This document shows, piece by piece, positions 394 through 64,000 of a stretch of 64,000 bases of DNA; positions within the stretch are counted from its first letter, which is position 1; every line of letters starts with the position of its first letter. Both the position numbers and the translations under genes were made by a program. The notes beneath the pieces were generated by a model. It did no database searches and was not told the DNA's origin. It saw only the letters and a program-made list of their open reading frames with translations. The DNA lies in NCBI RefSeq assembly GCF_000003815.2, contig NC_049990.1, positions 20,137,002 through 20,201,001 on the forward strand, read 5' to 3'. Origin of the DNA: Branchiostoma floridae (taxonomy: Eukaryota; Chordata; Leptocardii; Amphioxiformes; Branchiostomatidae).

Positions 394-3300
394 ATGTCAG
401 AAGAGGATATGATGGAAGCAAAGGGGGAGGCAAACATGACTGAAGGAAGCGTCTGTAGGCAAGCTAGCAGTGATGGGGATCCCTGCTCTCAGTGTTATTC
501 TATGCATCCCTGCACGCAGGTTTCGTCCGTGAAGTCCTGCAGGCAGTGCTATTCTCTGAATCCCTGTGACCAGGCCTGTTCTCGTAAATACGGGAGAAAA
601 GATGGCGATGATCTAATCGGCAAAAGTGGGGCCAAGTCCTGTAGTCAGTGTTATTCTCTGAATCCCTGTGACCAGGCCTGTTCTCTTATATACCAGCGAA
701 AAGATGACGATGACCAGTACCTCAATATTGGGTCCGAGGCTAGAAGCGGACAGGATAACAGCATCAGCCCTGTCGAGCACAGAGACGAGGATCACAAAGG
801 GTTTCTGGAGACAAATTCAGAAGAGCAGGAGGTAAACGAGACATTGGACGAGACGAACACAGCTTCAAGCAACAGCAAAGACAGACCTTTGAATTTGAAG
901 GGATGTAACGCGGAGATAGTTGTTACAGTCCTACGACAGGAAAATGAGTTACTGCGCCGGAGAATCCAACACCAACATCCAAATATTGTCGACGTCGCCT
1001 CAGATAATGAGACCATAGAACCTTATATCATTTCGTATATGTGCCCGAATCTTACGCATGAAGAAGCTGAGTGTCACTCATCGATGNNNNNNNNNNNNNN
1101 NNNNNNNNNNNNNNNNNNNNNNNNNNNNNNNNNNNNNNNNNNNNNNNNNNNNNNNNNNNNNNNNNNNNNNNNNNNNNNNNNNNNNNTGCACAGAAGAATT
1201 GTGCACATCCAACTGTACCGGAAAATGTACACAGCCTCAAATCCGGAGATGTTTGCACAGCCTCAAAGTCCGGAGAACGTCCTGGTGTCCAACCCGTTAT
1301 ACGTGCCGAGAATTCCAAAACAAGCAGCTTACGGTAAGAAATGTCTACTTTTTATCTCCAGGAAAAATTGAAATATTGTTTGGAATGTGGCTCTGTGTGT
1401 GTGTTTGTTTGTCTGCTTTTGTTTCTTGATTTTTTGTGGTCAGCATAACTGTAGGTGTTGGGTCAAGATGAAAGTCAAGGTAGATTTAATTTTGGGCCTC
1501 CTAGTATATAACCTTGGTACTGCAGCAGAACACGCCATGGTCTTGATATTTTGGTGGAAGATGTCTTGTGATGTAAAGGTGCATTGTCATTACACTTGCG
1601 TCAAGTTTGCGTCACAGCGTGGTTCGAAAGATACTCAACGAATTTCAAAGATAAAGAACGAATTTTCTTTACTTTTGTGTATTTTGTCGTCTTCTAAGTC
1701 ATACTTTTTTATATACCATAATATCAAAATTATTTTAAAAATCTGAGAAAATAACAAAACTTCGACGCAATGAACGAACTCCATTATGCAAATAAGTTCA
1801 TGATTTTCATAATTAATGCAAAACTGCTATAAGTCTAATAAAATCTAAATGATTGGATTGTCAAAATTTGACCTCTGCAAGTTCGTTAAAGGTGCACATA
1901 ACCAAGCATAGATTATGCAGATGTAAAAGACATTTGCAGAATCAGAGTATTTCATGGAGATATGAGCTCTCTAAACTCTTGTATTACTTAACCCTATTAA
2001 AGATGTTTCGTTATCATGTTTTTGATACATATGGATCAGACAATAGATCAAATGTTTCATTTTTTTAAATCTATAGAAGAAATTTGGTGTATTTTGGCTC
2101 TGCATAGATGCCTTTCTGTTTTAAATTGTGATATGTATAGTGTTACTAGACTGATCTTGTAGTATATGGGAAGGTATCCCTTGTCAACATACTTTTGTTA
2201 TTTTGACTGTATCCGGCTGTTTTCGGCTTAATTCTCTACTAACGCCTTGAAACTGTTGTGAAATTTTGCAGGATTAACTTGTCGGCGTGTGAACGTTGTT
2301 GCATCAGTAGCCATCTTATGTGTGATGTTGATTACGTGCTGCCTCTTTGTCGGGTTATACATCAACACCGACATCCAGAACGCTCAAAAGGTAAGCCTAC
2401 ATCTTGTTTTCCTTCCTTGATAAGTATTGATCTTATGTTGGAAATATTTGTTTTGGGTAGACATATTTCAATGTGAAACATTATGCACACTGCAAAGAAT
2501 GTTGGTTTAAAGTTTATTGCATTTAAATTCAACTTAGAGAATAATTTCTGGATAATTTGTCTTTTCTCCACTAAAAAGATAAATTGCATTCATTAGAATT
2601 CCGACTGAATTACTCGGTTTTCTTCAGCTATCTAACCCAATCGCTCTGACCACATGGATTTAGGACAAGTATGAAGAAAAAAAGCTGATATCACCCCCCG
2701 TCTCGGTTAAGAGAAATTTGGTGCTCTCTGACGCTCTGCTTTATTAAATAGATATTACAAAACATTTGTGTTATAAAATGTTAACACCCTCTAACAAAAC
2801 TGTTATAGGACTCAATATGAATATGTTGTGAAACCTCTGATGACAAAAGACTGGGTGTCATGTGGTCTAAGAATCTGGTACAGAACGGTTCTCAATATAA
2901 GACTTACATCTGTTGGAGGAGTCAATTCTATATTACGGGTGGGGACTTTGTTGCCGTTTTTTGCTAAGATTTTGACAACTTTTTCCATCTGAGATATCCA
3001 ACTATTTAAACATTTTTGTCACCTCCATGAAATGTCATGGAGGTTATATTTTCAATAGCGTTTGTCTGTCAACAAGATAACTCAAGAACGGCTAGATGGA
3101 TTGGTTTCATACTTGGTATGTTGGTCGGGTGTGATGAAAGCTGGTAATGATTACATTTTTGGCCTCCCTAGCGACTTTCCTTGGTACTGCAGCTCCACTT
3201 TCGGTGTTGCTATCTCGTGCTCTGAACAAGCTATGGTCACGAATTTTGAGGTCGCCGAACTCTAGTTTCTATGACTTTCTAGATATTTCATGTAGTATTC

Positions 3301-11924: not shown

Positions 11925-13769
11925 TTAGATTTCACAGATGTAGTAGTAAGAGCTTGGGCATGTACTATCATTCCAGCGGTAGTCCTTATCAGGATAGATG
12001 TGAATTTCCCTTGTGCCACCATTTGGTTCCTTTGCACCCCAGAACCCATCACCAACCCGCAACGTACCATCATCCCAAACCCACAAACCATCTGTCGCCT
12101 CATCAGTCAGCCCAATCCAGGTGTGTGCTTTGGTCGTAGCTCTCACGCGATTGGCCAGGAAGTTGTGGGTCTCATTATTCTTCACCGTTGCTAGGCGACC
12201 ACCTTCTTCGTGACAAGTGGCCCGTGATTCGTTGTACGATTTATGGTCGACGGAGAAGCGGTAACACCTCCCCATGAACAGCTCATAGCGAGTAGGACAG
12301 CTGATGGCAGAGCCTGCAGTGTCAAGAATGAATAGTTTTCCCAATAATAACGAATGAAATTTATTGCACGAAATTTGTACATGGTACAGTGTAAGGCAAA
12401 AAATGATAAAATAATCAATACACATGATGAAGCAACCAAAATCCATTGTTGCCTTTCTCTTTGAATACATTTTCAGCCATATATATGCATACGAATATCT
12501 TCACATTACGGTGTCATATCAACAGTGTCGAACTGTTAGGATACTCTGCCCAGAGACTAGAGGTCAAGTCCTTTGACATGCATCGATGGTGTGCCCTTGG
12601 GAAAGCTTAAGGCACTTTACACCACTCCCTCACGAAACTTCGGTGAATGACTACGGTTAGAGACGTCCCTCGGCTAGACGTTAACAGGGGGTTCCTTGTT
12701 TAGGCTTAGGTCACATTTCCAAAAAGCGAGGCCCGGCCGCCGCTCAGCTTTCGGGAGCGAAAAGAATGATATAAAATACCTCAAAATACACAAGATGTCA
12801 AACTAAGATTCATGGGCATGATTTGTGTATATTTCTAGGCATACATTTTAATTTTTCTTTTCTTAAAACATGCCGGCCGGGGCCCGCTTTGGAATGTGAC
12901 CTTAGCCTTAATACCCCCCTCATATTAGGCGAAAATCGATCGGACGACGAGTCTGCGAGCTCTAAATTACGAGGAGGCATGACCCTGACGGGAAGGGGGG
13001 GAACTCTGCCATTTCTTCGTCGGCATCAGGGTCATGCCTCCTAGTAACTTAGAGCTCTCAGACTCATCGTCCGATCGATTTTCACCTAATGTGAGGAGAG
13101 CCACACCTGGAACACGTTAAAGAACCCACACACCTCGAAAAAAGTAGGAGTCCTTCCCGGTGTGAGTGGATGATATAGATCGTCCTCCAATCTCAAACGG
13201 ACCAACCAGGTGTGTTCGGCCGTGAGTTAGCACAACCCAGTATGCAATACATGTACAATGTAGTTATACACGTAACTTTTATCCTCAGATAGGACGTTAA
13301 ATGGAGGTCCCGTGTATGGGGAGAGCCACACCCCATGCACGTTAAAGAACCCCCACATGTGCGATGGTGCGGTGTGTGTTGGTGCAAATCCTTCTGTGGG
13401 AGTTGGTGATTCACTTCAAATCACCCGGATGGAGGCCTGGCGAACCTCTGTCTCGTGCCAGCCACATGGTGATTTACATCATTCACCCGGACGGGAGACC
13501 TGGCGCATCCCCGTCTTGTAATTAGCCAGCGAAAGGGTATGTCACCCCGTAAGGGGCGGTATAACCCCGTCGTGTGTAAACATGTGCGATCACGTCGACC
13601 GATGATGATGAACTTTTAGCAATTATACAATATGGAAATGGATCCATGCAGCAACACAAAGGAAAATTATGATACCTGTGTTCCTGATCATTTGCTCGAG
13701 CTGTGAAACTCGCTCTTTCAGGCTGTCTGTGATCGTCTTCTGTTCAGCCAAAAGACGTAACAGTTGATT
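11925..13769 (-). CDS. C-type lectin copy 1 (CTLD with EPN motif), one conserved cysteine deleted
   Basis: The last exon, 12313 to 11925, encodes a full C-type lectin-like domain: paired Cys in CPTRYELFMGRC, ATCHEEGGRLATV, WIGLTDE, WVWDDG, EPN, WND and the terminal ICE. EPN and WND are the usual residues of calcium site 2, typical of mannose-type specificity. The preceding exon, 13769 to 13676, encodes an amphipathic heptad-like neck (LLAEQKTITDSLKERV region), phase 0 to 1. Relative to copy 2 the lectin exon is 6 bases shorter, removing the cysteine before HIYPDKD, so its usual partner in DSTCPSS is unpaired. The further upstream neck exon of copy 2 is not found here; that area is replaced by a fold-back element and LINE debris. 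The 5' end, including any membrane anchor, is not identified. The intron 12314-13675 has gained at least three insertions. Confidence 0.7.
12701..12910. mobile_element. MITE with GTCACATTTCC...CCCGGCC inverted ends
   Basis: The left end, TAGGCTTAGGTCACATTTCC then CCCGGCC, mirrors the right end, GGCCGGGGCCCGCTTTGGAA then TGTGACCTTAGCCTTA. A shorter relative is at 46312-46400. The paralogous lectin intron (41917-42357) lacks it, so it inserted after the segmental duplication. Confidence 0.7.
12925..13089. mobile_element. Fold-back MITE with about 65-bp arms
   Basis: The left arm, from TTAGGCGAAAATCGATCGGA to GGAGGCATGACCCTGACG, is mirrored by the right arm, from CAGGGTCATGCCTCC to TCGATTTTCACCTAA. 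The RNA or single strand would form a long hairpin. It is absent from the equivalent intron of lectin copy 2. Confidence 0.75.
13280..13605. repeat. Interspersed repeat with GCACGTTAAAGAACCC phrase
   Basis: Contains GGACGTTAAATGGAGGTCCC and GGGAGAGCCACACCCCATGC followed by ACGTTAAAGAACCC. A related segment is inverted at about 53265-53355, and the shared ACGTTAAAGAACCC core also occurs at 13105-13130 and 42180-42200. It is missing from the paralogous lectin intron. Family unknown to me. Confidence 0.45.
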
Positions 13770-17366: not shown

Positions 17367-20148
17367 ATGGTTGGACGGAAGGCACTGTTCTGGCTCCTTC
17401 TTGTCTCCAATCACCTACTTCTCGCACCAGAAGCTGCCAAACGATGCCCAGACGACTGTTTTACTAGAGTGGTCTTTTCTTGTCGCTGCCCCAATCCAAA
17501 TGGGAAAGGTTCGTCCTGTAGCTGGGTTGGGCATGGAGGAACATATGTCTTTCCCGTATGTCTTGACGCTATACCAACCGACTTCCCAAGAGAGACCCAA
17601 TCAATCATCATTGAACATCTTTCCTCTTCGACGCTCCTTGAGCAATCTTTTCAGAATCTTCGCATCGAGCGCCTCAACCATCTGAACATCCGAAAGTCAA
17701 ATGTTTCAGCTATACAGCCAATGGCTTTCCGCGGTCTACAGTACTTAGCTCATCTTTACCTTGCTGACAACCGCATCTCCCGACTAGGTAAGTCAGAAGG
17801 GCATTTCGTTTTAAAGTGTTTGTACCCTGTCATAGTAAATTTGGCCAAATAGGTAGATTCAGCAAATCAAAGTCCCCTAGAATATGACATGAAAGTATAA
17901 ATCATAGCATGAGATTTGTGAGAGAAGAACATTTTGTTTTGCAGTTTTTGTACCCTGCCATGGTAAATTTGGCTAAATAGAGTAGATTCAGCAAGTCAAG
18001 GTCCCCTAAAATATGACGCGAAAGTACAAATCATAGCATGAGATTTTCGATAGCTTATTTCTTCGGAAGGTGTATCGAGACACAGCAAATGTTGATCAAA
18101 GTTATTGATGTTAGATTAACGCAAAGCTGTAGAGTATATTAATGTTTTAACGGAATCCGGATGTAGGTGTTTCAGTAGCTACACGGTATCATAAGGTTTA
18201 TAACACCCAACACCACCTACCTAAACATCAAGTAAAATGTCTAGAATAAAATTACGTCAACTAATCATTTCCATGCTATAGTTGAAACACTACGAATACG
18301 GATTTTGTTTGTACATCTAATCGAAATTGTATTTCCTCACTTATATCTATTAACCATCAAACACCCGAGTGGGGTCCGTTTGGACCCCAGGCGTAAATTT
18401 GGAAGTGCCATTGGAACATTTTTGATCTGAAGAAAAATCAAGTCCGTGACCTTATTATCACATATCTGTTATACCATCTCCTAAATCTTTACAGAGATTG
18501 GCACAATTTGGGGGAAATTATAAAGGAAAGTATGTGTTTAGTCCGTCTGGGGTCCAAACGGACCCCAGCAAAATAAGCAGTTTTTGAATCAAAGTTTAGA
18601 GACTCCTAAACTACTTATCATTTTTGCTAACAACATTTTGTGATGTTTTACCAAGTTTGGTAGCTTTAGCGTAATCCGCTCAGGAGTTGTACGACATGAA
18701 AGTTGCCGAAGGCCTCAACCCCCTCCTTGATCTGAATAGGTTGAGGGCAAAATTTGGTCCTTCTGATCTTTTGCATAAAATATGATAATGAGTGGGAATT
18801 CGTTACATCTTACATTGACCAAGCTTTGTATGTACAATCATCACCCATAAAAATTGGAAAGGAGATTCTTTCAACAAAACATTTTAGGGTCCGTTTGGAC
18901 CCCACTCGGTCATTTTAGTCGCAAAATATTCTGGTGCTTGAGGGTTAAGTAAGTTATCTTTCGTATCATTAGTTGTCATCGCGTACCTAAGAGTAAGAAT
19001 CTAGTATTTCTCACCATTCACGAGAAATCTTCTATCTACCTTCAGAAGCAGATACTTTCCTCGGTCTTGTGAATTTATATATCCTGATCCTGGAGAAGAA
19101 CACGATTTCCACAATATCGCAACATGCCTTCCGTGGCCTACGCCTACTACAACATCTGCGATTGTCTAAAAACCGCCTGACTTCAGTGCCTGTTGACGCG
19201 CTTCTGCAACCTGAATCCTTGTGGGCGGCGGACCTGCAGATGAACCACATCACAACGATCGGCAGGGATGTCGTGCGGTTGACGCGACAGCAACACTTGG
19301 CTCTTCAGATCGGACACAACAAGTTGACGTGTGACAAGAATCTAACATGGTTGGTCTGCTCCCTGTGGAATCTTACGTTCATTTCTCAACGCGGCGCTCT
19401 GAGGTGCGCACTTCCTCCTGAACTCTCGGGAACCAACCTAACTACCATGAGAAGATATTTCTGCCAAACTAGCACGGAGTGGCCGCAACGTGGGATAGGC
19501 TCCAAAACACTTAACGAACTTTCTCTGACACCAACTTCAAGGATAATGGACTCAATAAGTCCTCACATCTTCAACACCCACCCGTACACCGATACCATCC
19601 CAACTGAGAGCTATACAGAAATGCCGCACACCATGCCAGTCACTGAACACACGACACAGATGGAGTACGTCATTATTCTTGGGGGAAAACTATTCATCAA
19701 CGAGGATGTCAACTACGCCATTGCCATGGCCAGTGCTGTTGTCGTTCCCCTGTCGATGGCAGCCGCTGTCCTCTCCATCTTTAAACTCTGTGGTGTAAAA
19801 GATCTGCCTCACGAACAACCTACATCCACTGAGGCGAAGACCCATGACAACCAACCGTACGCAGTGGCTTATGCCGACTCCGGAGAAATTCGAGGATCTG
19901 ACGGAAGCTCAACCACAAGCGGACAGAACATCCCTGATCGTGACGGAACCCCGACAGAAGACAACTATACCATTCAACCATATGCAGTGGCTTATGGAGA
20001 AGACATTCAGCCATATGCAGTGGCTGACAATGAAGACCCAGGACCACAGTTTTTTTCTCGAGCAGCTGCCAGGTGCATTGATGACCAAGAGCAAGACGAC
20101 AACTATAAGATCCAGCCGTATGCAGTAGATTACCCGGACTCCATATAA
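17367..20148 (+). CDS. LRR transmembrane receptor with repeated QPYAV(A/D) cytoplasmic motifs
   Basis: Two exons, 17367-17787 and 19046-20148 (phase 1, GT-AG), give a predicted 507 residues. The start ATG is in a good context (accaagATGG) and begins a signal peptide (KALFWLLLVSNHLLLA). Then follow a cysteine-rich N-cap (CPDDC...CRC), about six leucine-rich repeats (for example AFRGLQYLAHLYLADNRIS and AFRGLRLLQHLRLSKNRLT), a Cys-containing C-cap and a Thr-rich stalk. A membrane helix lies at about residues 362-387 (AIAMASAVVVPLSMAAAVLS). The tail of about 120 residues contains four PY motifs with Tyr near 412, 453, 464 and 499: NQPYAVAY, IQPYAVAY, IQPYAVAD and IQPYAVDY. These are spaced, acidic-flanked tyrosine motifs that suggest kinase/adaptor binding. 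The ligand is unknown. No second copy is seen in the window. Confidence 0.85.
18350..18948. mobile_element. piggyBac-like MITE in the LRR gene intron
   Basis: Flanked by TTAA on both sides (18350-18353 and 18945-18948). Terminal repeats run TTAACC(A/C)TCAA inward and are followed by the sub-terminal palindrome GGGGTCCGTTTGGACCCC, which recurs internally near 18550 and at the right end. TTAA target duplication is the signature of the piggyBac superfamily. No transposase is encoded. Confidence 0.75.
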
Positions 20149-20379
20149 GCTACAACTTTTAGTACAAAAAGCAGAAAATGCGAAGATGTTTAGGATTCAA
20201 AATCGCTGCAAAATGGTCCTGACGAGCTGACAGAAAACGACAATCAACCAATTGTTCAATCAGAGGACCACTGTTAATTATTTTGATTATGTATTATGAT
20301 AACAGTTGTATCTGTGCATTATGAAAATGTGGTTCAAAGCTGCTCCGTTGTTTAGTTCAGTAATGACTATCATTGTTAG

Positions 20380-20720
20380 CATGAAAGTTCATCTGTGTTG
20401 GTGGAATACATTATAGAAATTGCTAAACTTTCTTTCCAACACTGAATTAATATAGGGACTTACCCTAAATTTTCGGCCAACTCCGTCGACCTTGTTCACA
20501 GAATGACTCTATCTCCAGCAGTGACGTCAGGAACACGCCACTTTTGCAGGAGGGGGTCATAAGTATCAGAGAGTCTGTGCCGCCCCCCGTCTCTGTTGAG
20601 TGTGGGCCGGTGGGCTCTAATGTACACTGCCTCCTTCACTCCTCGCGCGAAGAAATCCTGTTCTGAGTCTAAGATTTTTACTTTGTCCAACGAAACGGAA
20701 TGTCCCGGAGACTCTATATG
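20380..20720 (-). mobile_element. Penelope-like element 3' fragment (GIY-YIG endonuclease C-terminus)
   Basis: On the - strand, 20690 to 20496 encodes a segment with RGVKEAVYIRAHRPTLNRDG followed by SDTYDPLL. This matches the C-terminal part of the GIY-YIG domain of Penelope-like retroelements; the Glu of KEAVYIR and the Asn of TLNR are the expected conserved residues. Downstream (20495-20385) is a 3' region, GGCCGAAAATTTAGGGTAAGT and CACCAACACAGATGAAC, shared with fragments at 40217-40345, 46775-47070 and 62500-62690. The element is truncated. Confidence 0.6.
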
Positions 20721-21424
20721 TATATAATTTCTATAATGACTATCATTGTTGTTTTATCTCCAAAAGTAGATATATCAATATGGATATAATGAACATGTGG
20801 ATGATTGCTTTTGTCAATAGTTGACATATATGAAATAGTCACATATATGAAAGATGCAATATCATGCACACCGGAAATTTTATTCAAAGGTTCATCCATT
20901 TCACATATGACTACAATCGTGATTGCAGTTATCATTTATCACATGCATTGAATTGTAACCAGATGCAGCAAACAGCAATAAAAAGCATTGCTTGGATAAA
21001 TGATTTCAAACATCTTTGTTAACATAAACATCACAGCCTAACAGTACATTAGATACGTGACAGAACAAGTTTGCCCAGTTTTTTGCCTGTAAGGCTTAAC
21101 AGTAGAGCAGCTTTAGCTTGGAAGCTTGCGTACAGATTTGCTCTTTTACTCAGCACACCAGTTAAAAAAAACACTTCTCGCTATTGTGAACAACATATGT
21201 AAAAATGAGTTTGGATGAATGAATGATAGTGGCTAGACAAATCAAATTCATTTGCGAGATAATTACCTCCATACTGGAAATAGAGCACCTACATATGTGC
21301 CCCAAAAACACATTCATGCACACGTGTATATACAGATGTCACGTGTCACCAAGCAATTCTACAAGTAATGGGGACAGCCTTTTGTCTAAATCCGGCAGGG
21401 CAACCGAAACTTTGGGTTGAAAAG

Positions 21425-21425
<1 letters not shown>
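20721..21425. other. Intergenic stretch, nothing recognised
   Basis: AT-rich sequence between the Penelope-like fragment and the microsatellite. I see no open reading frame with family features, no RNA gene and no clear repeat structure. Confidence 0.5.
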
Positions 21426-21426
<1 letters not shown>

Positions 21427-21466
<40 letters not shown>

Positions 21467-21640
21467 TGTGTGTGTGTATGTATGTGTGTGTATGCGCGTG
21501 TATGTGCGTGTGTATGTGTGTGTGTGTGTGTGTGCATGTTTGTTTTTGTTTGTGTGTGTTTGTATGCGTGTGTGTGTGTGTGTGTGTATGTGTTTGTGTG
21601 CGTGCACGTGTGCGTTTGCTTGCATGTGTGTTGCCAAGTG
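21427..21640. repeat. (GT)n-rich compound microsatellite
   Basis: About 210 bases of GT dinucleotides interrupted by TA, TT and GC variants. It creates spurious Cys-Val or Thr-His reading frames on both strands. Confidence 0.95.
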
Positions 21641-21858
21641 ACGCACCCACTACAGCCTTTAGCTAATAAACAATCCCGCAAGCTGGAAGTAGGACGACGC
21701 CTGGGCGGCCACAGAAAACCAGACTGAGGGACAATAATCAAGGAATGGAGTCCTTCGCCCATCCAGGAAGGCTGACTGCTGCGTCACACTATGATGAGTC
21801 TGGCGTGAAATTTCCATCTTTATCATTCCTTCCAGAGACCGAGGGACTTGATAGATAC

Positions 21859-22082
21859 NNNNNNNNNNNNNNNNNNNNNNNNNNNNNNNNNNNNNNNNNN
21901 NNNNNNNNNNNNNNNNNNNNNNNNNNNNNNNNNNNNNNNNNNNNNNNNNNNNNNNNNNNNNNNNNNNNNNNNNNNNNNNNNNNNNNNNNNNNNNNNNNNN
22001 NNNNNNNNNNNNNNNNNNNNNNNNNNNNNNNNNNNNNNNNNNNNNNNNNNNNNNNNNNNNNNNNNNNNNNNNNNNNNNNNNN
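21859..22082. other. Assembly gap (224 N)
   Basis: Run of N between the microsatellite and the 3' side of TM-NHL copy 2. Confidence 0.95.
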
Positions 22083-22603
22083 GTAACGTCATGAGAAGCC
22101 AAGATGGTGGTATATTTGACAGCTGCGGTAAGTTTCACTGATTGGAATCTTTAAAAATCAGACTTTTGGACACTTGAGATAGCAAGCTGATGTGTGGGAT
22201 GATTTCGTATGACCTGGAATGTTCACGGATGAGATTATGACATCCTGAACTTACTACTTATTTTTTTACATTATCGCCAATGCAGATTTCCATTTGTGTT
22301 CTAGGGCCTTAAGCCTTTTTATGGTGAGTTTACTCACAGTCAGAAATCGTTATCTACTGATCCGCCTCCTATCGGTACAAAGGGACCACATGCTCGTCCA
22401 AAACACGATATATCAAAGTAGATAGGTCCGCTGCAGTACCATAGAAAGTCGATAGGAGGCCCAAAGTCTAATTGCTTTGAGGTCTTCTCAACATTGACCA
22501 ATTATTCATCAAGACAATCCATGCCTTCTCTAGTTATCATCTTTATAGACGGAGAGACACACGGATGCTACTGAAAACAAGTAGACCTTCTTGGCAAAGG
22601 TAA

Positions 22604-25600
22604 TTACGGCATCAAAGTATGGCGTGGAAAAATTGTTACAAGGTTTTTGGTCTTCCTTGTAGTCACCACCAACTGTCCGTCGGGTCCTACAGCAATGTCC
22701 CATGGTAATCTAACCTCAACGACGGTGCGGACATACGTCCCATTGTATCTGTACATGTCTACCCTGTGTGCCACGCTCCCTATGATGATGTTCCCCAAAC
22801 TGTCTCTGTAGACACCTTGTGGATAATCAATACCCATGCCTTTTGCCTTCCATAGGATCCTGAACAGCAGATGTCCAGTGTGATTGTACACGTGAACTCC
22901 AACCCCTTCTGCCGTAATTATATTACCTTCTTTGTCCGATGTAACGCACCTTGCTAACTTCAATGATTTGAACCTTCTATCATACAAGGAGTCGTCTGGT
23001 GAAAAGATATAGATATCAGTGTCCGCAGCAACAATGACTTTGTTGTTAACCGCGTCAAAGGTAGCGCTTACCAAGTATTTATATGTGCATGGTAGCAAGT
23101 TTGCGCTGTTGAGTGCGGGTTGACCTTCTCGATTGTACTTAACTAACACACATTTTTCCCGACGCTTTGAGTCAACGACGAAACCCACTACCCATACATT
23201 TCCCTTTCCGTCAATGGTGACATCGGTAGGGTAAATCGTTTTTGCAGTTACACCGGGTACTACCGCTGGGAAGAGGCGGAGAAAGGTCCCGTTCATGCCG
23301 AAGACCTGGATCCGACTGTTGCCTCCATCAGCTACAAATATTTCATTGTATCTTGACACAACCACTTTAGTAAAACCTTTAAACTTCCCTGGGCCTTTTC
23401 CCTTCCCACCGAAAGTGATCTTCTTCTTCGAGTTCACGATTCTGGTACGGCTTTCTGTAATGATACAATTGGCCATGGAACTTAAAACCGAAGAAACATA
23501 TATTTTAAGATATTAGCAATCAATATTTGATGTTGACACGGAGTAAGCTAGAATTGTCAACTTTTTTTACTATACTATATCATGCAGTTATAATTAGATG
23601 TAATTATTATCCTAGACATTCAGTCATTACAGTCCCATTCAGTGTAAAAAAAACAATTAGCTTCATCATCACAATTAGCTTAGAAGCCACCACTCCTATA
23701 AACTGGTGGGTAGATTAGACAACGCCACATACAATTGTTAATCAAATATTAAAATATTACATGATCATTTTGTTGAAGATGGCTTACCCTTGTAGGTGAC
23801 TGGTGTCGGTGTGACGACACCATTGGTGTAAAGGTCCGGTTCCGGTTTGCTTGTGCCAAAGGGAATAGTACTAGTCGTTTGGCGGGTGGACATCCTTGCT
23901 GATGTAAAATTCGTTAGCATCGTTGTAGATGGCGTGTGGTATGGCGTCTCTAAGGGGTCTTCCTTATTTGTAGAAGCTACAGATAGCACAACAGATTGGA
24001 TTGTAAGGTTCGTGTGGTAACTTTAACTGAATACATTATTTCATATAAGTTTCATCTATTCTTTCTATATGTTTCATCAGCTTGGTCACTGAACATTCAA
24101 GTTTTATGAACTTCGAATAGAATGGTAGGTTTATTCATACATATACATACACACATACATACATAGGATATACTTTAACAAAATTTCGGCCTGATTGAGT
24201 GTAACATAATGTTGTTATGTTCAACTAATACATGTGTATTTCAATTTTAAAGTTATGGATGGTAATAATTTAAAGATTATATTCAGCAATTCATTAATTG
24301 TAAACATGAAGTAACTCTAAATGTAGCAACACATAATTTACATGTTGTCTCTCCTTAGCCTACCCAATTTAATGCTAAATCAAATCACCTTGGGAGCTGT
24401 TAGAGATCGCAGACATTGTGGCCTCTTGCATGTTCCCGGAAGTTGATGTTAATCTTGTACCCCCGAATCCACCACTATCAGCCAAAGCCTGTTACGGGAA
24501 TTCAATACACAAATACAACATTTATGAGAATCTGTCTAAGAATTTGAATCATTTTTCAAATGGTAGATAGCCCATAGAAAGTAGGTGCTAAGCTGGTTTT
24601 ATTGTCTGCAGGTGTATATTTCTAGAATATGTGAATTGCTTTTAATTATTATCATGCCACTGAATCACTACAAAATGTAATGACATGTTACAATAAATGG
24701 TGAATCTATGATGTATATTATAAACTACTGTAATATAAAATAACGTAATCTACGTTAGAACTCCTCTAGCATGTGAAAATACTGTGTAGATTATTTTGAA
24801 AGTCAAACAAATTAATTTTTTTTCATATTTAGATATCTCAGGTAGAATGGCAAAAAACGGCTACAAACTCTCGCCGTAACATAGAATTGACTCCACCAAC
24901 AGATGTAAATCTTACATTGGAGAAACTAAACGTTCTCTACCAGATTCTTGGAACATAGGTCATCCAGTTTTTTGTTATCAGAGATTTCACACCATATTCA
25001 TGTGAATTCCAGTGGCTCACAGTTTTGTTAGGGTGTTAACATTTTGAATAACATGAATGTTTGGTAAGATTAGTAACGTAGGTCATCTACACCAGAGCCC
25101 ACCAACATTCTAGATCTCTTTCCCGAGACGGGGGGCGATATGAGCCACCAACGACATTTAACTTCACACTTGTCATAATTCCATGTGTTCAAAGTGTTCG
25201 GGTCATATAGCTGAAGAAAATTCAAGGATTTCAGACGAAATTTGTATTAGTGCAATTTATTTTTTTGAGTGGAAAAGAGTAAACAAAATCCCGAAATCAT
25301 TTTCTAAGTTGAACTTAAACGCACTTTGAAACCAACATTTGATGGCAGTGTGCATAGTGTTTTACATTGAAATATATCTCCCCAAAACAGAAAAAAAGTT
25401 TCAAAATACTTATATATCAATGCTTATCAACAAAGAAAAGCAAAATTACATATTGTTCTATCAAGTTAATTTCCATTATTTTCCTGTACAATGATAGGGG
25501 TACTCACGGCATTTTATGATCATACTCCTTGTTCTTGGATTTTAAGTTTCAGTTTTGTTGTTACACATGTGCATTTATTTTCTGTATGTTTGCCACGACT

Positions 25601-26884
25601 TTCTTTCTGTAAAATTATGTTGTTTATAAACAATAAAAAGAGTGATTTATATTTTAAAAAAAAGCAAAATTTAGGCTTACCTTTTGAGAATTTTGGATGT
25701 TGGTGTTGATGTATAACCCGACAAAAAGGCAGCACGTGATTAACATTGCACATAAGATAGCTACTGATGCAACAACGCTCACACGCCGACAAGTTAACCC
25801 TGCAAAATTTCACAACAGTTTCAAGGCGTTGGCAGAGATCTTGAACCGAAAACAGCAAGGCAAAATAATAAACTTTGAGATAATGTTGACCAGATTCATC
25901 TTTCCTGCTTATTTTTTTTCCAGTACGAGGGCACCAGTGACACTATACTTAATTCAAAACAGAAAGGCATCTATGCAGAACCAAATTACACCAAATTTCT
26001 TCTATAGGATTTGAAAAAAAATCAAATTTTCATCCATTGTCAGATCCACATGTATGTCATTTCCTAGTTTGAAAATAAAAGCATGATAAGAAAGCATATG
26101 AAACGGGGGGTAAGTAATGCTTTTTATCAACAAGAATTCGGAGAGCTCATATCTCATGAAATATTCTGATTATGAAAATTACTTTCGCATCTGTATAATG
26201 CATGCTTTGTTATGTGAACCTTTAACAAACTTAGTAATATAATAATACATAGATCACAATGTTGACAATCCAATCATCTACAATAGAATAATGAAAGTTT
26301 TGCATTGATTACAAAAAATTATGGACATTTTCAGAATAAATGATTGCTAATTTTTGCCTCCCTGGAACTGCATAGGCCACATGCGCACTCTCGGTCACAT
26401 GAATTTGAGTCCTATAATGGGAAACACTGTATAGATTTTCATAATGAAATATTCAAATGATTCCTATTTTGCATGATTTCCACTTTGTTGTGTTCACCTT
26501 CTACCTAAGATACCTGCATACTAAATATCATGAAAATATGCCTTTTCTTTTGTACCGTTATTCTCCTCGGAAGATTGTGACACAAACGCCCCTGCAGATC
26601 CAGAGCAAGCTGCTAGGGGGACCAAGCACACACCACGTCTTTGAAAACATCACAAGATATCTGCCTTCAAAAAATCAAGACCATGATATGTCCAGGTGAA
26701 AAGATACAAAACGTGAGTTCTGCTGCAGTACCAAGGTTACTTGGGGCCTCAAAATGAATCTTGACCATGATCTTTTCAACACCTACCGACACAACAAATA
26801 TCATTGCAATCCACAAAGAGGTTTTTGAGTTATGCTGACCAAAAATGAATCCGGAAACAAACACACATACACACACACGCACAC

Positions 26885-26955
<71 letters not shown>

Positions 26956-27889
26956 CCCCCCCCCCCCCAATAATATTTCCATTTTGTCATGATATAAAGA
27001 GTAGACATTTCTTACCGTTAGCTGCTTGTTTTGGAATTCTCGGCACGTATAACGGGTTAGACACCAGGAAGTTCTCCGGATTTTGAGGCTGTGCACCATT
27101 CTCCGGATTTTGAGGCTGTGCACCAATCTCCGGATTTTGAAGCTGTGTAACATTTTCCGAATTTGTAGGATGTGCACAATTCTTCTGTGCATTATTTTGG
27201 CGCATCGATGAGTGACACTCAGCTTCTTCATGCGTAAGATTCGGGCACATATACGAAATAATATAAGGTTCTATGGTCTCATTATCTGAGGCGACGTCGA
27301 CGTTATTTGGATGTTGGTTGTTGGTTCTCCGGCGCAGTAACTCATTTTCCTGTCGTAGGACTGTAACAACTATGTCCGCGTTACATCCCTTCAAAGGTCT
27401 GTCTTTGCTGTTGCTTGAAGCTGTTTTCGTCTCGTCCAATGTCTCTTTTACCTCCTGCTCTTCTGAATTTGTCTCCAGAAACCCTTTGTGATCCTCGTCT
27501 CTGTGCTCGACAGGGCTGATGCTGTTATCCTGTCCGCTTCTAGCCTCGGACACAGTTTTGGCGGTTTGGTCATGGCTACCTCTTCGCCGGTAAATAAGTG
27601 AACAGGCCTGGTCACAAGGATTCAGAGAATAACACTGAGTACAGGACTCGGCCCCACTTTTGGCGGTTAGATCATCGCCACCTATTCGCCCGTATATACG
27701 AGAACAGGCCTGGTCACAGAGATTCAGAGAATAGCACTGCCTACAGGACTTCACGGACGAAACCTGCGTGCAGGGATGCATGGAATAACACTGAGAGCAG
27801 GGATCCCCATCACTGCCAGCTTGCCTAAAGACGCTTCCTTCAGTCATGTTTGCCTCCCCCTTTGCTTCCATCATATCCTCTTCTGACAT
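22604..27889 (-). CDS. TM-NHL protein copy 2, complete five-exon reference copy
   Basis: Exons (- strand) are 27889-27016, 25799-25681, 24488-24389, 23976-23788 and 23454-22604, all GT-AG, phases 1, 0, 1, 1. They sum to 2133 bases, 710 residues plus stop, with no break. Residues 31-96 hold C-x-Q-C-Y-S-(M/L)-(H/N)-(P/L)-C repeats. About 178-190 is a short Leu/Glu helix. 202-213 is DNETIEPYIISY. 250-273 are Q-N-P-E-x-G-A-Q-P repeats, and 278-281 is NPLY. The membrane helix is about 299-318 (VVASVAILCAMLITCCLFVG) after Arg-Arg, predicting N-in/C-out. A Thr/Ser stalk precedes a six-blade NHL propeller (about 429-710; blade signatures NEIFVADGGNSRIQVF and GNVWVVGF) with N-glycosylation sites NGT, NHT and NGT. 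NHL domains bind protein, RNA or ligands. An external placement, as here, is unlike TRIM-NHL proteins. Function inferred as a surface receptor. Confidence 0.88.
24989..25600. other. Intron 2 of TM-NHL copy 2, no separate gene
   Basis: Diverged counterpart of intron 2 of copy 3: shared phrases such as GACGGGGGG near 25130 and the AGAAACTAAACG region. It lacks the R1 repeat found in copies 1 and 3. Nothing coding is seen. Confidence 0.5.
26855..26968. repeat. (AC)n microsatellite plus C tract in intron 1 of TM-NHL copy 2
   Basis: About 95 bases of AC repeats followed by about 14 C, ending about 45 bases from the exon 1 donor site. Confidence 0.9.
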
Positions 27890-32617: not shown

Positions 32618-32723
32618 CTTGAAGGTACCTCCTCCACACATCAGGCACGTGTATGTCATATTATCAAGAGCTGCCATATGACTACATCGCAAAGAGCTCA
32701 CACCAATGCTGCCCATAGACAAA

Positions 32724-35700
32724 ATGTCAGAAGAGGATATGATGGAAGCCAGGCCTGTTCTCGTATATACGGGCGAAGAGGTGGCGATGATCTAACCGCC
32801 AAAAGTGGGGCCGAGTCCTGTAGTCAGTGTTATTCTCTGAATCCCTGTGACCAGGCCTGTTCTCGTAAATACGGGAGAAAAGATGGCGATGATCTTACCG
32901 CCAAATAGAAGCGGACAGGATAACAGCATCAGCCCTGTCGAGCACAGAGACGAGGATCACAAAGGGTTTCTGGAGACAAATTCAGAAGAGCAGGAGGTAA
33001 AAGAGACATTGGACGAGACGAAAACAGCTTTAAGCAACAGCAAAGACAGACCTTTGAACTTGAAGGGATGTAACGCGGACATAGTTGTTACAGTCCTACG
33101 ACAGGAAAATGAGTTACTGCGCCGAAGAACCAACAACCAACATCCAAATATTGTCGACGTCGCCTCAGATAATGAGACCATAGAACCTTATATCATTTCG
33201 TATATGTGCCCGAATCTTACGCATGAAGAAGCTGAGTGTCACTCATCGATGCACCAAGATGATGCACAGAAGAATTGTGCACATCCTACAAATTCGGAAA
33301 ATGTTACACAGCCTCAAAATCCGGAGATTGGTGCACAGCCTCAAAATCCGGAGATTGGTGCACAGCCTCAAAGTCCGGAGAACGTCCTGGTGTCAAACCC
33401 GTTATACGTGCCGAATATTCCCAAACAAGCAGCTTACGGTAAGAAATGTCTACTTTTTATCTCCAGGAAAAATTGAAATATTGCTTGGAATGTGGCTCTG
33501 TGTGCGTGTTCGTTTATCTGCTTTTGTTTCTTGATTTTTTGTGGTCAGCATAACTGTAGGTGTTGGGTCAAGATGAACGTCAAGGTAGATTTAATTTTGG
33601 ACCTCCTAGTATGTAAGCTTGGTACTGCAGCAGAACATGCCATGGTCTTGATATTTTAGTGGAAGATGTCTTGTGATGTAAATGTGCATTGTCATTACAC
33701 TTGCGTCAAGTTGGCGTCACAGCGGGGTTCGAAAGATACTCAACGAATTTCAAAGATAAAGAACGAATTTTCTTACTTTTGTGTATTTTGTCGTCTTCTA
33801 AGTCATACTTTTTCATGTAACGTGTTACCATAATATCAAAATTATTTTAAAAATCGGAGAAAATAACAAAACTTCGACGCAATGAACGAACTCCATTATG
33901 CAAATAAGTTCATGATTTTCATAATTAATGCAAAACTGCCATAAGTCTAATAAAATCTAAATGATTGGATTGTCAAAATTTGACCTGTGCAAGTTCGTTA
34001 AAGGTGCACATAACCAAGCATAGATTATGCAGATGTAAAAGACATTTGCAGAATCAGAGTATTTCATGGAGATATGAGCTCTCTAAACTCTTGTATTACT
34101 TAACCCTATTAAGTATGTTTCGTTATCATGTTTTTGATTCATATGGATCAGACAATAGATCAAATGTTTCATTTTTTCAAATCTATAGAAGAAATTTGGT
34201 GTATTTTGGCTCTGCATAGATGCCTTTCTGTTTTAAATTGTGATATGTATAGTGTTACTAGACTGATCTTGTACTGGAGTATATGGGAAGGTATCCCTTG
34301 TCAACATACTTTTGTTATTTTGACTGTATCTGGCTGTTTTCGGCTCAATTTTCTACTAACGCCTTGAAACTGTTGTGAAATATTGCAGGATTAACTTGTC
34401 GGCGTGTGAGCGTTGTTGCATCAGTAGCCATCTTATGTGCGACGTTGATTACGTGCTGCCTCTTTGTCGGGTTATACATCAACACCAACATCCAGAACGC
34501 TCAAAAGGTAAGCCTACATCTTGTTTTCCTTTCTTGATAAGTATTGATCTTATGTTGGAAATATTTGTTTTGGGTAGACATATTTCAATGCACACTGTGC
34601 ACTTATGCACACTGCAAAGAATGTTGGTTTAAAGTTTATTGCATTTAAATTGAACTTAGAGAATAATTACTGGATAATTTTTCTTTTCTCCACTAAAAAG
34701 ATAAATTGCATTCATTAGAATTCCGACTGAATTACTCGGTTTTCTTCAGCTATCTAACCCAATCGCTCTGACCACATGGATTTAGGACAAGTATGAAGAA
34801 ACAAAGCTGATATCACCCCCCGTCTCGGTTAAGAGAAATTTGGTGCTCTCTGACGCTCTGCTTTATTAAATAGATATTACAAAAATTTGTGTTATAAAAT
34901 GTTAACACTCTCTAACAAAACTGTTATAGGACTCAATATGAATATGTTGTGAAACCTCTGATGACAAAAGACTGGGTGTCATGTGGTCTAAGAATCTGGT
35001 ACAGAACGTTTCTCAATGTAAGACTTACATCTGTTGGAGGAGTCAATTCTATATTACGGGTGGGGACTTTGTTGCCGTTTTCTGCTAAGATTTTGACAAC
35101 TTTTTCCATCTGAGATATTCAACTATTTAAACATATTTGTAACCTCCATGAAATGTCATGGAGGTTATAATTTCAATAGCGTTTTTCTGTCAACAAGATA
35201 ACTCAAGAACGGCTAGATGGATTGGTTTCATACTTGGTGTGTTGGTCGGGTGTGATGAAAGCTGGTAATGATAACATTTTTGGCCTCCCTAGCGACTTTC
35301 CTTGGTACTGCAGCTCAACTTTCGGTGTTGCTATCTCGTGCTCTGAACAAGCTATGGTCACGAATTTTGAGGTCGCCGAACTCTAGTTTCTATGACTTTC
35401 TAAATATTTCATGTAGTATTCCCACAGGTTAGAGTAGTTCTAATGTCGAATTTAATTAGTTTATAATGTACTTCAATAAGATTCACCATTCACTGTAACA
35501 TGTTAGAACATTTTGTAATGATTCAGTGGGATGATAATAATTAAAAGCAATTCACATATTCTAGAAATCTACACCTGCAGACAATAAAACCAGCTTAGCA
35601 CCTACCTTCTATGGGCTATCTACCATTTGAAAAATGATTCAAATTCTTAGACAGATTCTCATAGATGTTTAATTATTGTTCTAAATAAAGATTTATTTGT

Positions 35701-41521: not shown

Positions 41522-41968
41522 TTAGATTTCACAGATGTAGTAGTAAGAGCTTGGGCATGTACTATCATTCCAGCGGTAGTCCTTATCCGGATAAATGTGA
41601 ACACAGTTTTCCCTTGTACCACCGTTTGGTTCCTTTGTACCCCAGAACCCATCACCAACCCGCAACGTACCATCATCCCAAACCCACAGCCCCTCTGTCT
41701 CCTGATCACTCAGCCCGATCCAGGTGTGTGCTTTAGTTGTAGCTCTCACGTGATTGGCCAGGAAGTTGTGGGTCTCGTTATTCTTCACTGTTGCTAGGCG
41801 GCCACCCTCTTCGTGACAAGTGGCCCGTGACTCGTTGTAGGGTTTACGATCGACGGAGAAGCGGTAACACTTCCCCATGAACAGCTCATAGCGAGTAGGA
41901 CAGCTGATGGCAGAGCCTGCAGTGTCAAGAATGGATAGTTTTTTTTCCAATTAATGAGTGAATGGATG

Positions 41969-44771: not shown

Positions 44772-45000
44772 TAACGCCAGTTCACCTTTATCCGCAGGGT
44801 AACCTATATCCGTTCTTTTGAAGAACAAGGTATTCAGGGATATCAAGGCGACGAACGGTGGTTTCAAACTGCAATATTTTGTACTGCTGAATTTTGCATT
44901 TAGTACAATTTGAAATCGCCGTCCGTCGATATCGCTATTTACGCCGTTTATCATCACAACGGATGTAGGTTACCACGCGGATAAAGGTGAGCTAGCGTTA
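44772..45000. mobile_element. MITE with TAACGC...TTCACCTTTATCCGC inverted ends
   Basis: The left end, TAACGCCAGTTCACCTTTAT then CCGCAGGGTAACCTATATCC, is mirrored by the right end, GGATGTAGGTTACC then GCGGATAAAGGTGAGCTAGC. A second copy is at 57414-57633. Confidence 0.7.
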
Positions 45001-45054
45001 TATTCATTGTCACATTCTTGAATACGAAACATGGGACAAAAAACGCATGCTGGC

Positions 45055-45068
45055 GGGGGGGGGGGGGG
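45055..45068. repeat. Poly-G tract
   Basis: Fourteen G in a row; prone to sequencing error. Confidence 0.8.
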
Positions 45069-45344
45069 TCATAGGGCTTGTTCTAGTTCTCCCTCCATCG
45101 AAGTTAACAAAAAATACCAAGGAGCAAACAACAATGATATTATACAATAGCAGATGACAACATTCGAAGTTCTAATTGACGTGCATGACAACCGAACGAC
45201 CTGGAGGTCAATTGACTAGGTAGGTAGGAAGCATGTTAATGTTTTAGCTAAGTCATGCATCTTGGATTACATATTGGGGTACTAGTACATCTTGGGGTAC
45301 ATCTTGTGGTACATCTTGGAGTACATCTTGGGTCAGATCTTACA

Positions 45345-48300
45345 TTACACGCATTCTTCCCTGAGAAGTGGTGGGTGCTCACTAGGAACACTACTCCTCC
45401 TCCTCGGCTCCTCCGTCCTATCCGACAGTACAATGTCCGACCGGTGTCCGAGTGGCAGAAGCACGACTTCGGTATCCCTCGGGTGCTCGGGTCGTCGTTG
45501 TTCGGCCTCACTTCGGAAGCAGTCGGCGACGTCGTACTTCATCGGGATCTTCTCTCGTTCGAAGAGCAGCTTGAGCAGGAGGGAGACGACGACGATCGTG
45601 AGGAAACTGCACAGCATGGCGAAGGCACGGAAGGGGAAGAGCTGTAGTCCTTCTGCCTCGTCATAATACGGGTACCTTGCAGAAATAAATGCATGGAGTT
45701 ACAGGGAGACTAATTCTAAACTAATTTTAAACTAATTTTCAAAGCACACCTCAGTATGATAAAGACACCTTTATGCCGGTATCTCACTAATAGAGACTGG
45801 GTTGCCATCAAATTTGAACATTTCTGGCTAACACAAAGTAGCATAATACGAAACTTCAACAATGGGTCAAAGGTCGTTAGAAGTCGATTTCTGTGAGCGG
45901 GACGGGGCCGATATCGACTTCTAATGACCTCTGTATCTCATGAAAATATCGATTCACCGATCGTGAGTATCGACAATTGACTTTTTTACTTGGACAACAC
46001 AGAGTAGACTCGACCGGTCGACCAATCCAACGGCCTTAGTCAAGAATATTGATACATGTTTCATGCAAATTAGCCATGAGAAACCGTTGCAAGCTTACTT
46101 GATGACAGGATCGATGGATAGCAGACTCTCCCCTCCGCATATCCTGAGGACCATCCCCACGATGTAACCGCACAGAGAGCCGTAGGTGTTGGTGAACTTG
46201 AGGTGCACCACGCACACCAGCTGGGGAAACAGGATCACAAACACCAAGTCCCCGCACAGTAAAAACAGCCCTGTGGTCAATAAAAAAGGTGTAGATAGCA
46301 TTTAGTAAAGGACTACGTCACATTTCAAAACCGGGGCCCGGCCGGGGTTTCGTTTTCACAAATAGCCCGGCCGGGTCCCGGTTTGGAAATGTGACGTTAG
46401 CCATGCCCGGTCAGGAGATCTGTTAAAAACAGGCGTCATTGAAATAAGCTGTGACGGCAATAGGGATATAAGGTGACTATTGCTCTCCTAGCTCTTACCA
46501 TAGATGGATTTGACAGTCAGCGCCAGAGCCGTTGCCATGGTTCCCACGACAAAGAGTGACAAACGTATCACCCACACGAGCTCTGTCTCCGTCGCCTAGA
46601 ATATAATGGAAAAACAATATATTTCCCTCCTACGGTGGTATGGAGTGAAATATAAATATTGCGATTCGAGTGCAGGTGCATCCCTCTGTTTCCAGAAGTA
46701 GCGGTTATCTGGCAGACAAAACATTCTTTTGATGGGCTATTTTCATAGTAAAGGATATGAAATTGTAAATTGAAAGTTTATCTTTGTTCAATGGTAGAAG
46801 TCATTATTGGACTAGTCAAACTGTAATGTCCAAAACAAAAAGATTTACAACCATTTCTGAACAGAGACGGTGGGCGCCATAGAATTCCTTCAACTTATGA
46901 TCCACTGCTTACTGAGTCACGTGTTCTATCTGCATAACGTGACGTCACGACAGCAGTGGATTGTTGATTCTTTGACTAGTCACTGCTAAGTCGAATATTT
47001 GGGTGAGTCCAATTTTTGCGTTGGATATTGTAACAGACTATAGTCCAATAATGATATTAAATTTTTTTGAAAAATCGCCAAACAACTGCCTTCTGTCTGA
47101 AGATGAGTTTGTAGACGTTCCGTGCGAAGAGTGAGCTGGACGCCAGGACCGAGGAGTCAGCCGAGGACATGACCGCTGCTGACACGGCGCCGAGTCCGAA
47201 GAACGACACCCACGTCGGAGTCAGGTACTGCAGGACTAGGGGCAGGATCAGGCTAGCTTGTCCTTCAACAGCCGGGTCCTTGCCGTATGCTGTTTTGGGC
47301 CAGTCTGGAACAGTCCGATGAAGGAATGTTAATTTTTAGCTACCAGTGGCGAAAGAACCTGTATACGTAACTATTGTATTTCAAAACCGGAATGCATTTC
47401 AATTCTAAGTGTCTCTCTAACGACCAGGAAAGAAAAGAGCTATCGAGCAGAACCCACAAAATGTTCCAAACGTTTACTGACGAAAGAAAAAGTACTAGTG
47501 GGACACTCCGTCTTGAAAGAAGTCGAAGTCAAAATTCTTAGATTGTAGCTCTCAGCAGTTCATTTATTACTAGAAAAGTCACTTGTTTCCACTTGTTACC
47601 ATTGTTATCTATGCCAAAGTCTTCCATGTTCTCTATATGTTTGCATATATTCTGTATGTTCCATGTTGCAGTTAGCCCTCGGGCAAGAAGTAGCAAATAC
47701 ATTAACTTTCCATGTGAATCAGTCGTTTGCCTTTGCTCCGACTGAAACAAAAAAGCTAGAGAAAGTAAGAAAAGTTAAATGTAATCAGAAACTCCAAGGG
47801 GGAGGGGGGCATCTTCCTTACCTGTTGAGGCGCCGATGGCTCCGATCAGTATAGACGGGATGGACATGATGACGCAACCCAGGCCGGCCGCGATGGACAA
47901 CCACTGCGCACGCGCAGGAGACTTGGAGGAGAGGACACGTTGGAAGTAACACTGCCATGGAATCCCGCCGCACATCTTGATTAAGAACATAAGGAAAGAA
48001 ATATTTATCAACCCCTTTATTTAGCCTTAGGGCCACAATACAACAGTGCGAGCACTAGAGCAAGTTGTCTAAGTCTTGCAGTTGTGTATGTGCTCTACAC
48101 ATTACAGGCCATTGCAGCATTATGCCTGCCGAAGTACTTAGGTAAAAGCCTGGTCCCTTCCTTATTTCCGTCAAGAATCTCTATGTCCCACGGTCGTCTC
48201 TAGTTTCCGCAGTAATGGTATGTACTTTTAATTTATGCAATATGAAAACTCAGAAGCTATCTCAAGGGGTGTTTGGTTCATGTTTTTAGATTAGTAACAC

Positions 48301-52294: not shown

Positions 52295-52398
52295 CTTTCT
52301 CAACTCACAATCTATACTCTATCGAGGAAAGGTTAACAATGATGACTAAGTCCAAAAAGTTGTCATGTACCTCCTTATGCACTCTCTTGTCGCCTCCT

Positions 52399-52421
52399 AT
52401 TGGTTGTTCCATATGACGTCA
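52399..52421 (-). promoter_or_regulatory. Candidate CCAAT box and CRE upstream of gene A
   Basis: On the - strand CCAAT (52399-52403) and the palindrome TGACGTCA (52414-52421) lie 105-127 bases before the start codon of gene A. The spacing is plausible for a proximal promoter, but there is no expression evidence. Confidence 0.35.
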
Positions 52422-59568: not shown

Positions 59569-59923
59569 CTGTGAAAGTAGGGCAATGTTGTTGTTTTTTT
59601 AAATGCGGATCTTTCCCCAAGACAAACATGTTGACAACACAGTGACAGGTCATTCGTCTTATTTTCTATCGCAACTGAATCATACATTCCAATTCACATT
59701 TCTCACCAGCGGTTTACTCTATTTGTGGTTTCCGCAATAAATTAAACACGGAACGCCCCCGCCCATATAGGGTACTTACCTCCTGGCCATGAACTTAGAT
59801 AAAATGATATATCCGAAAATAATTTCATCAGGTTGCGTCAAGTGTAGAATATTGGAGGTTTATTTTTCTGTATCTGTATCTATATAGCCGGTATAACCGC
59901 CCTTCGATGTAACACACCTGCTA

Positions 59924-63657: not shown

Positions 63658-64000
63658 CTTAAACATAAAGACGAAAGTGGGCTAACGTGAAGACATTCAC
63701 ATCAATTCACTGTCGCCTACAATTGATTCATTTGTTGCGTGTCCTCACTACGAACATTGCTCATGTTTTGAGCTACTACAAGAATCAGTTGATAATGTTT
63801 CTGGCCAAGGAGGATGCTGGAACTGTCCCAGCATTCATTGCAATATACCTTCTACAATACGCATCCAAGATGGCTGACCGTGAGCAACAAGCATAAAGGC
63901 TTGTAATATTGCCTTTGACCAAGCGTAGCAACTGGTACAATTTGATCAGTGAAATTTTTTTATTAAATGGTCAATAAACTTATTATGATAAGTAGTCCAC
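63658..64000. other. Intron 5 of gene C (partial)
   Basis: No exon of the transporter is seen to the window edge. A short + strand frame here has no family features. Confidence 0.5.

Follow-up and report, generated by a model that had tools for sequence, protein, structure and literature searches.

Immunoreceptor tyrosine-based activating, inhibitory and switch motifs (ITAMs, ITIMs and ITSMs) are short, often repeated tyrosine motifs that are common to otherwise unrelated receptors, both of type I and of type II. A multi-tyrosine array is likewise found in the substrate domain of p130Cas, and teneurins carry an extracellular NHL propeller. For most of the expanded receptor families of lancelets we know of no established signalling output. 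Here we analyse a stretch of 64,000 nucleotides of Branchiostoma floridae (contig NC_049990.1, positions 20,137,002 to 20,201,001 of the forward strand; this whole stretch is termed the window), which holds a gene for a leucine-rich repeat (LRR) receptor and three copies of a gene for a transmembrane (TM) protein with an NHL beta-propeller, termed TM-NHL. Judged from their sequences, these proteins share a short linear site, [I/L]-[Q/E/K]-P-Y-[A/S]-V-x-(Y) (hereafter IxPYAV), that is common to two unrelated, expanded lancelet receptor families of opposite predicted orientation. We propose that it is probably a phosphotyrosine docking site for one shared adaptor with an SH2 or PTB domain.

The nearest experimental case is BbLcLRR of Branchiostoma belcheri, like the window protein a lancelet LRR transmembrane receptor. 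According to its description, immune stimulation of the B. belcheri gut raises tyrosine phosphorylation that is sensitive to an Lck inhibitor, and BbLcLRR is found with BbLck (PMC8211107). In Jurkat cells the same text reports that BbLcLRR is phosphorylated by Lck, recruits SHIP1 and, to a lesser extent, SHP1/2, and inhibits signalling via three tyrosines (PMC8211107). Unlike the window receptor, BbLcLRR is there given a WSC domain and the sites DDYATV, HDYSEV and HDYDDP, rather than IxPYAV (PMC8211107). A further lancelet LRR protein, FrLRR, is described as associated with Grb2 in a second paper (PMC10199209).

The LRR receptor of the window is encoded on the forward strand by two exons, which were joined by eye on their splice-site letters, as were those of the TM-NHL models. 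Exon 1 (17367..17787) encodes the N-terminal part of the LRRs and a hydrophobic N-terminal stretch, presumed to be the signal peptide, whose 19-residue hydropathy maximum is 1.44 at residue 6 (1.6 being the threshold used for a TM segment). Exon 2 (19046..20148), placed by its donor and acceptor letters, encodes LRRs, stalk, TM segment and the entire cytosolic tail up to the stop. The product of 507 residues matches PF13855 (E 6.6e-21) and shows one hydropathy peak, giving a single TM segment at about residues 365-388 (19717..19788), and so belongs to the class of LRR transmembrane receptors. Four near-canonical PYAV sites lie in its tail: NQPYAVAY (Tyr412; 19849..19872), DNYTIQPYAVAY (Tyr453; 19960..19995, site C12:20156973 of the genome scan below), IQPYAVAD (Tyr464; 20005..20028), where Asp replaces the second Tyr, and DNYKIQPYAVDY (Tyr499; 20098..20133). 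An earlier reading of this DNA made without database searches (the sequence-only reading) had reported the motif at Tyr453 and Tyr499 with two shorter versions, and had these positions right.

Which residues of the site are constrained was judged from relatives of this receptor. An LRR-protein search yielded 78 relatives, of which we kept the 71 from lancelets, a set that spans several Branchiostoma species and includes many paralogues; the seven dropped were P0069, P0070 and P0075 (from other animals or a microsporidian), P0073 (TLR3 of B. floridae), P0072, P0078 and P0077, the last of which carries PYAV-type sites. PYAV, PYAI or PYAM is present in 70 of the 71. When sites are anchored on other residues, Tyr follows the Pro in 293 of 300 cases, the others being four His and one each of Ser, Asn and Ile, with no Phe. 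The Pro itself is retained at 293 of 296 sites, and the +2 position is Val at 283 of 300. The second Tyr is present at 193 of 293 sites, with His at 67 and Phe at 12. The sequence-only reading had given the motif as D-N-x-x-I-x-P-Y-x-x-x-Y; its tyrosine core is indeed shared, but the version with D-N, DNxxI[QE]PYxxxY, occurs in 26 of the 71 relatives (40 sites), and [ILV][QEK]PYxxxY in 65 (199 sites). Therefore, as the D-N and the second Tyr are dispensable and the anchored residues are kept, we take the constrained unit to be [IL][QEK]PY[AS]V. Moreover, the occurrence of Phe at the second Tyr and never at the first suggests that the hydroxyl of the first matters. An alignment of 38 of the 71 relatives points to the same residues: conservation of at least 90% is reached in six of 98 well-occupied tail columns, every one of them a motif residue, and in 34 of 317 columns of the ectodomain. 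With the LRR tail alone as query, a protein search gave no match. The number of sites differs strongly between close relatives, P0001 having nine PYAV-type sites against four in the 85% identical window gene, and the array therefore seems quick to expand and contract.

Placement of the LRR motif inside the cell, as the sequence-only reading had predicted, is supported by its distribution. In the 66 relatives with a TM segment called by hydropathy (the five without a call being left out of this count), the core occurs 273 times in the tails (16,801 residues) and not once in the ectodomains (23,023 residues). AlphaFold, run on the 38-protein alignment, gave the tail of P0001 (393-588) a predicted local distance difference test score (pLDDT) below 50 and most of the LRR domain one above 90; the LRR-tail motif is thus predicted to be disordered and cytosolic. 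In a fold search with P0001 the top match was the Nogo receptor, and LGR4, 5T4, AMIGO-1 and Slit2 also ranked high.

TM-NHL copy 2 lies on the reverse strand and encodes 710 residues in five exons between 27889 and 22604. These are exon 1 (27016..27889), encoding the predicted cytosolic domain; exon 2 (25681..25799), with the TM segment at about residues 298-320; exons 3 (24389..24488) and 4 (23788..23976), for the stalk, the latter being rich in Ser and Thr; and exon 5 (22604..23454), for an NHL beta-propeller ectodomain. PF01436 scores above its cut-off in all three window copies, which identifies the NHL beta-propeller, and propeller-type families are the only Pfam matches of the copy 2 ectodomain. 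The motif DNETIEPYIISY occupies residues 202-213 of copy 2, with the PY tyrosine at Tyr209 (27251..27286, reverse strand), and the same 12 residues are encoded in copy 1 (1003..1038, forward strand) and copy 3 (33168..33203, forward strand), so that translation confirmed what the sequence-only reading had stated. Shortly ahead of the TM segment is NPLY, an NPxY-type site (Tyr281; 27047..27058, reverse strand) that aligns with the NPMY of other TM-NHL genes. A six-frame scan of the window for [ILVM]xPYxxxY gave six matches: one in each NHL copy, two at LRR sites and a sixth in a frame where the match includes a stop. Copy 1 has an assembly gap within exon 1 (window 1087-1186), and exon 1 of copy 3 is interrupted, upstream of the motif, by frame changes and a stop (window 32715-33440); as assembled, both therefore lack the complete N-terminal domain of copy 2. 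A ratio of nonsynonymous to synonymous divergence (dN/dS) involving copy 1 was discarded, the gap and the shifted frame behind it invalidating the value.

The motif of TM-NHL stands N-terminal to the TM segment, which is flanked by four Lys or Arg residues on its N-terminal side compared with two on its C-terminal side. Furthermore, the protein starts without a hydrophobic segment (its hydropathy there peaks at 0.1, that of the LRR protein at 1.44). This charge bias and the missing N-terminal segment favour a cytosolic N-terminus, that is, a predicted type II protein. Teneurins resemble TM-NHL as predicted in having an intracellular N-terminus and a single TM helix; unlike them, the lancelet protein as modelled is a short one of TM segment, stalk and NHL propeller. 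A structure model of TM-NHL had a mean pLDDT of 40 and no claim about its fold is drawn from it. The N-terminal domain also contains repeated Cys-Tyr units (CYSMHPC, CYSLNLC and CYSLNPC; window 27614-27790, reverse strand), present in copy 1 as well, which are odd for a cytosolic segment.

The similarity between the two families at this site exceeds what composition would give. With a weight matrix built from LRR tails, DNETIEPYIISYM is the top site of the NHL cytosolic part and none of 20,000 shuffles scores as high; DNETIEPYIISYM itself outscores about 4% of the LRR sites. When the matrix was instead built from other TM-NHL exons, the score of DNETIEPYIISYM was equalled or exceeded by 2 of 20,000 shuffles. 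BLAST of the window NHL exon against a 19-sequence set, without composition correction and used for positional alignment only (the best alignment, with locus L022, overruns the exon end), aligned it, among the alignments listed, with L022, L017 and L024, placing DNETIEPYIISYM over IQPYAVAY and NPLYVP over NPMYVA, NPMYVP or NPMYQP. Therefore, the best reading of the window copies is that they have diverged within a larger TM-NHL family that has the canonical motif, and their diverged single site may be weaker or altered. LYNP of the LRR tails and NPLY of TM-NHL were also considered as a second shared motif and rejected for lack of significance, 982 of 20,000 shuffles scoring at least as high.

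Genome-wide, a DNA pattern for IQPYAVAY found 82 sites in 513 Mb, against none for the reversed pattern, and a relaxed pattern found 175 against none; all these counts are lower bounds. We read 69 of the 82 sites; the other 13 lie on C3, C4 and C6 close to copies that were read, with spacing equal or similar to theirs. LRR-type tails account for 50 of the 69: at 49, the window's own included, the stretch holds a same-strand LRR ectodomain match, and L027 has an LRR-type TM segment and tail, interrupted by stops, with no LRR match within 7.5 kb. The other 19 sites lie in open exons followed by a same-strand NHL propeller (13 with the propeller inside the fetched locus and 6 with it in the stretch alongside). 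Pfam, applied to five of these 19 NHL stretches, gave PF01436 in all five; the stretch of a sixth locus, L063, contains an in-frame stop. The claim that LRR and TM-NHL receptors have the motif in common thus extends well beyond this locus. In the 19 TM-NHL exons there are one to seven core sites per exon, with more than one in 16; NPxY occurs in 14, and between the motif and the exon end in 11. Tyr is found at 53 of 53 motif sites of these exons, in part by construction since the exons were chosen for IQPYAVAY. At several of the loci hydrophobic stretches, candidate TM exons, lie between the motif and the propeller. Further receptor families are possible, among the 13 remaining IQPYAVAY sites and, with variant motifs, at IEPYAV-type loci. 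We also observed five groups of IQPYAVAY sites within about 28 kb at C6:85647-113106; the two groups that were read are both LRR, which suggests five tandem LRR receptor copies.

The two families encode this peptide differently. In the LRR family, the 48 sites compared have CAG for Gln in 41 cases, GCA for the first Ala in 41 and GTG for Val in 43; the 19 NHL sites have CAA in 17, GCT in 12 and GTT in 13. A recent transfer or gene conversion is therefore unlikely, and the codon usage fits convergence or an old common use of the site rather than a recent exon transfer. We found no relevant open-licence paper that prints the strings PYAVAY, QPYAV or EPYAV.

IxPYAV was compared with the known tyrosine motifs over the LRR sites. 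The ITIM consensus ([SILV]xYxx[ILV]) does not describe the first Tyr, where -2 is Gln, Glu or Lys at 293 of 309 sites and +3 is Thr, Ala or Ser at 248 of 293. It does fit the second Tyr at 48 sites in 20 of the 71 relatives, none of them in the window, and some second tyrosines form an ITIM-like V[ST]YMDV. Paired YxxL/I, as in ITAMs, does not describe it either (+3 of the first Tyr is Ile at 2 of 293 sites and Leu at none), and neither does the ITSM, TxYxx[VI], the first Tyr having Thr at -2 at 1 of 309 sites and the second having the core Val there (283 of 300). IxPYAV differs from all three in that its Tyr lacks a hydrophobic residue at -2 and mostly also at +3. The WW-domain ligand PPxY was rejected too (Pro at -3 in 2 of 303 sites and at -2 in 1 of 309), and YxxPhi at the first Tyr would account for at most 25 of 293 sites, those with Val, Ile or Phe at +3. 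NPxY motifs, which bind PTB and clathrin adaptors, are distinct from IxPYAV: they are seen only at the separate NPLY of TM-NHL copy 2 and in the TM-NHL exons counted above, and in only two of the 71 LRR relatives. As in the p130Cas array, many copies of one tyrosine peptide stand in a disordered region, suggesting multivalent docking; unlike p130Cas, the lancelet proteins are membrane receptors and not a soluble scaffold, and YxxP occurs at 2 of 293 LRR sites.

The arrangement that we propose has the type I LRR receptors carrying the motif in the C-terminal tail, often in several copies (a loose count gives as many as 18), and the predicted type II TM-NHL proteins carrying it in the N-terminal domain, usually together with NPxY sites. 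Clustering of the receptors by ligand would lead a Src-family kinase to phosphorylate the tyrosine of the Pro-Tyr pair; one shared SH2- or PTB-domain protein would then bind the phosphorylated site in LRR and NHL receptors alike, so that receptors with different ectodomains could feed one pathway, with the number of motif copies setting the valency. In this scheme we infer the orientation of TM-NHL as well as phosphorylation, kinase, adaptor and output. Docking through phosphotyrosine is suggested by the retention of Tyr without Phe, the disorder, the cytosolic placement and the repetition of the site, and a shared reader protein by the presence of one sequence in two families. More tentatively, and with rather less than even confidence, IxPYAV arrays might constitute a private pan-receptor tyrosine code of lancelets, parallel to ITAM and ITIM under another consensus, which wires two repertoires of opposite topology into one adaptor and tunes the signal by copy number. 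The motif offers a handle for naming the adaptor of dozens of receptors at once and, were the proposal true, would be another case, besides ITAM and ITIM, of one tyrosine motif used across unrelated receptor families.

Several observations weigh against this proposal. The LRR counts take in close paralogues, and the sites are for that reason not independent. To our knowledge, a Tyr preceded by Pro at -1 and followed by Ala-Val fits no SH2 consensus. All 81 proteins found lack the strings DYATV, DYSEV and HDYDDP of BbLcLRR. The orientation of TM-NHL is itself a prediction; the intracellular placement of its motif, predicted by the sequence-only reading, agrees with the position ahead of the TM segment and with the charges, but the Cys-rich repeats and four N-glycosylation sequons of the N-terminus are odd for that side of the membrane. 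Lastly, the window NHL site has Ile at +1, a residue found there at 0 of 297 LRR and 0 of 54 NHL sites, and P0079, a TM-NHL protein of B. floridae, has Ser at the motif Pro. These two substitutions lead to a reading that we consider unlikely but worth weighing, in which the window TM-NHL motif is a decaying relic that has lost the ability to bind the LRR-tail partner, and the locus does not feed one pathway. It would account for Ile-Ile where both families mostly have Ala-Val, and for a single diverged site in copy 2 where most other TM-NHL exons (16 of 19) have two or more; the dN/dS between exons 1 of copies 2 and 3 (0.055/0.112, about 0.5) is compatible with it, although we judged this value uninformative. 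Against decay, when the cytosolic part of TM-NHL was used as query, three of 2287 candidates proved to be matches, each a B. floridae protein, and DNETIEPYIISYM is unchanged in two of them and in all three window copies, close paralogues though these are. It also outscores every shuffle with the LRR matrix and all but two with the NHL matrix.

That the site docks a partner without being phosphorylated, as a peptide for trafficking, endocytosis or cytoskeletal linkage whose Pro-Tyr packs into a pocket, seems to us rather improbable. The flanking Ile, Pro, Ala and Val show roughly the same constraint as the Tyr, the presence of His in place of the second Tyr at 67 of 293 sites implies that a paired phosphotyrosine is dispensable, and NPxY, which is known as a type of endocytosis signal, accompanies the motif in most TM-NHL exons. 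However, the first Tyr is never Phe while the second sometimes is, suggesting that the hydroxyl matters, and neither YxxPhi nor PPxY generally describes the site, +3 being mostly Thr, Ala or Ser and -2 Gln, Glu or Lys. Least probable by far is that the tail sites have no selected function and arise only from the slippage-driven expansion of coding tandem repeats. Several tails, such as those of P0020, P0025 and P0052, do contain long runs of a 15-residue repeat, and the nine sites of P0001 against four in its close relative could have arisen in this way. Yet the core is kept at two non-repeated sites across diverged paralogues and in more than one Branchiostoma species, where most other tail columns are not, and the same peptide recurs in an unrelated family, mostly with other codons.

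Other repeated tyrosine peptides were seen in LRR tails (P0018, P0039, P0046 and others), of the types GKGKNGKL[AP]PYATTS, LYNPAHGQ and IPLYAAG. Outside lancelets, the tail of P0075, a slit-like protein of Lingula, holds YINPYGPTYETI, which resembles I-x-P-Y-x-x-x-Y; it is not the best site of that protein by the matrix and may be due to chance.

The sequence-only reading had included lectins among the receptors that could join one pathway through this motif. Two C-type lectin exons (PF00059) lie in the window on the reverse strand, at 11925-12470 and 41522-41950, with coiled-coil-like open frames upstream. The six-frame scan flagged the tyrosine pattern in none of the frames of either, the N-terminal lectin exons being only partly resolved, and no IQPYAVAY stretch that was read matched a C-type lectin query; the inclusion of lectins is thus unsupported. 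Finally, gene-like units repeated threefold occupy about 45000-64000 of the window on the reverse strand. One of three exons tested from these units matches the sodium:solute symporter family (PF00474), with none in the other two, and we take the units to be choline-transporter-like.

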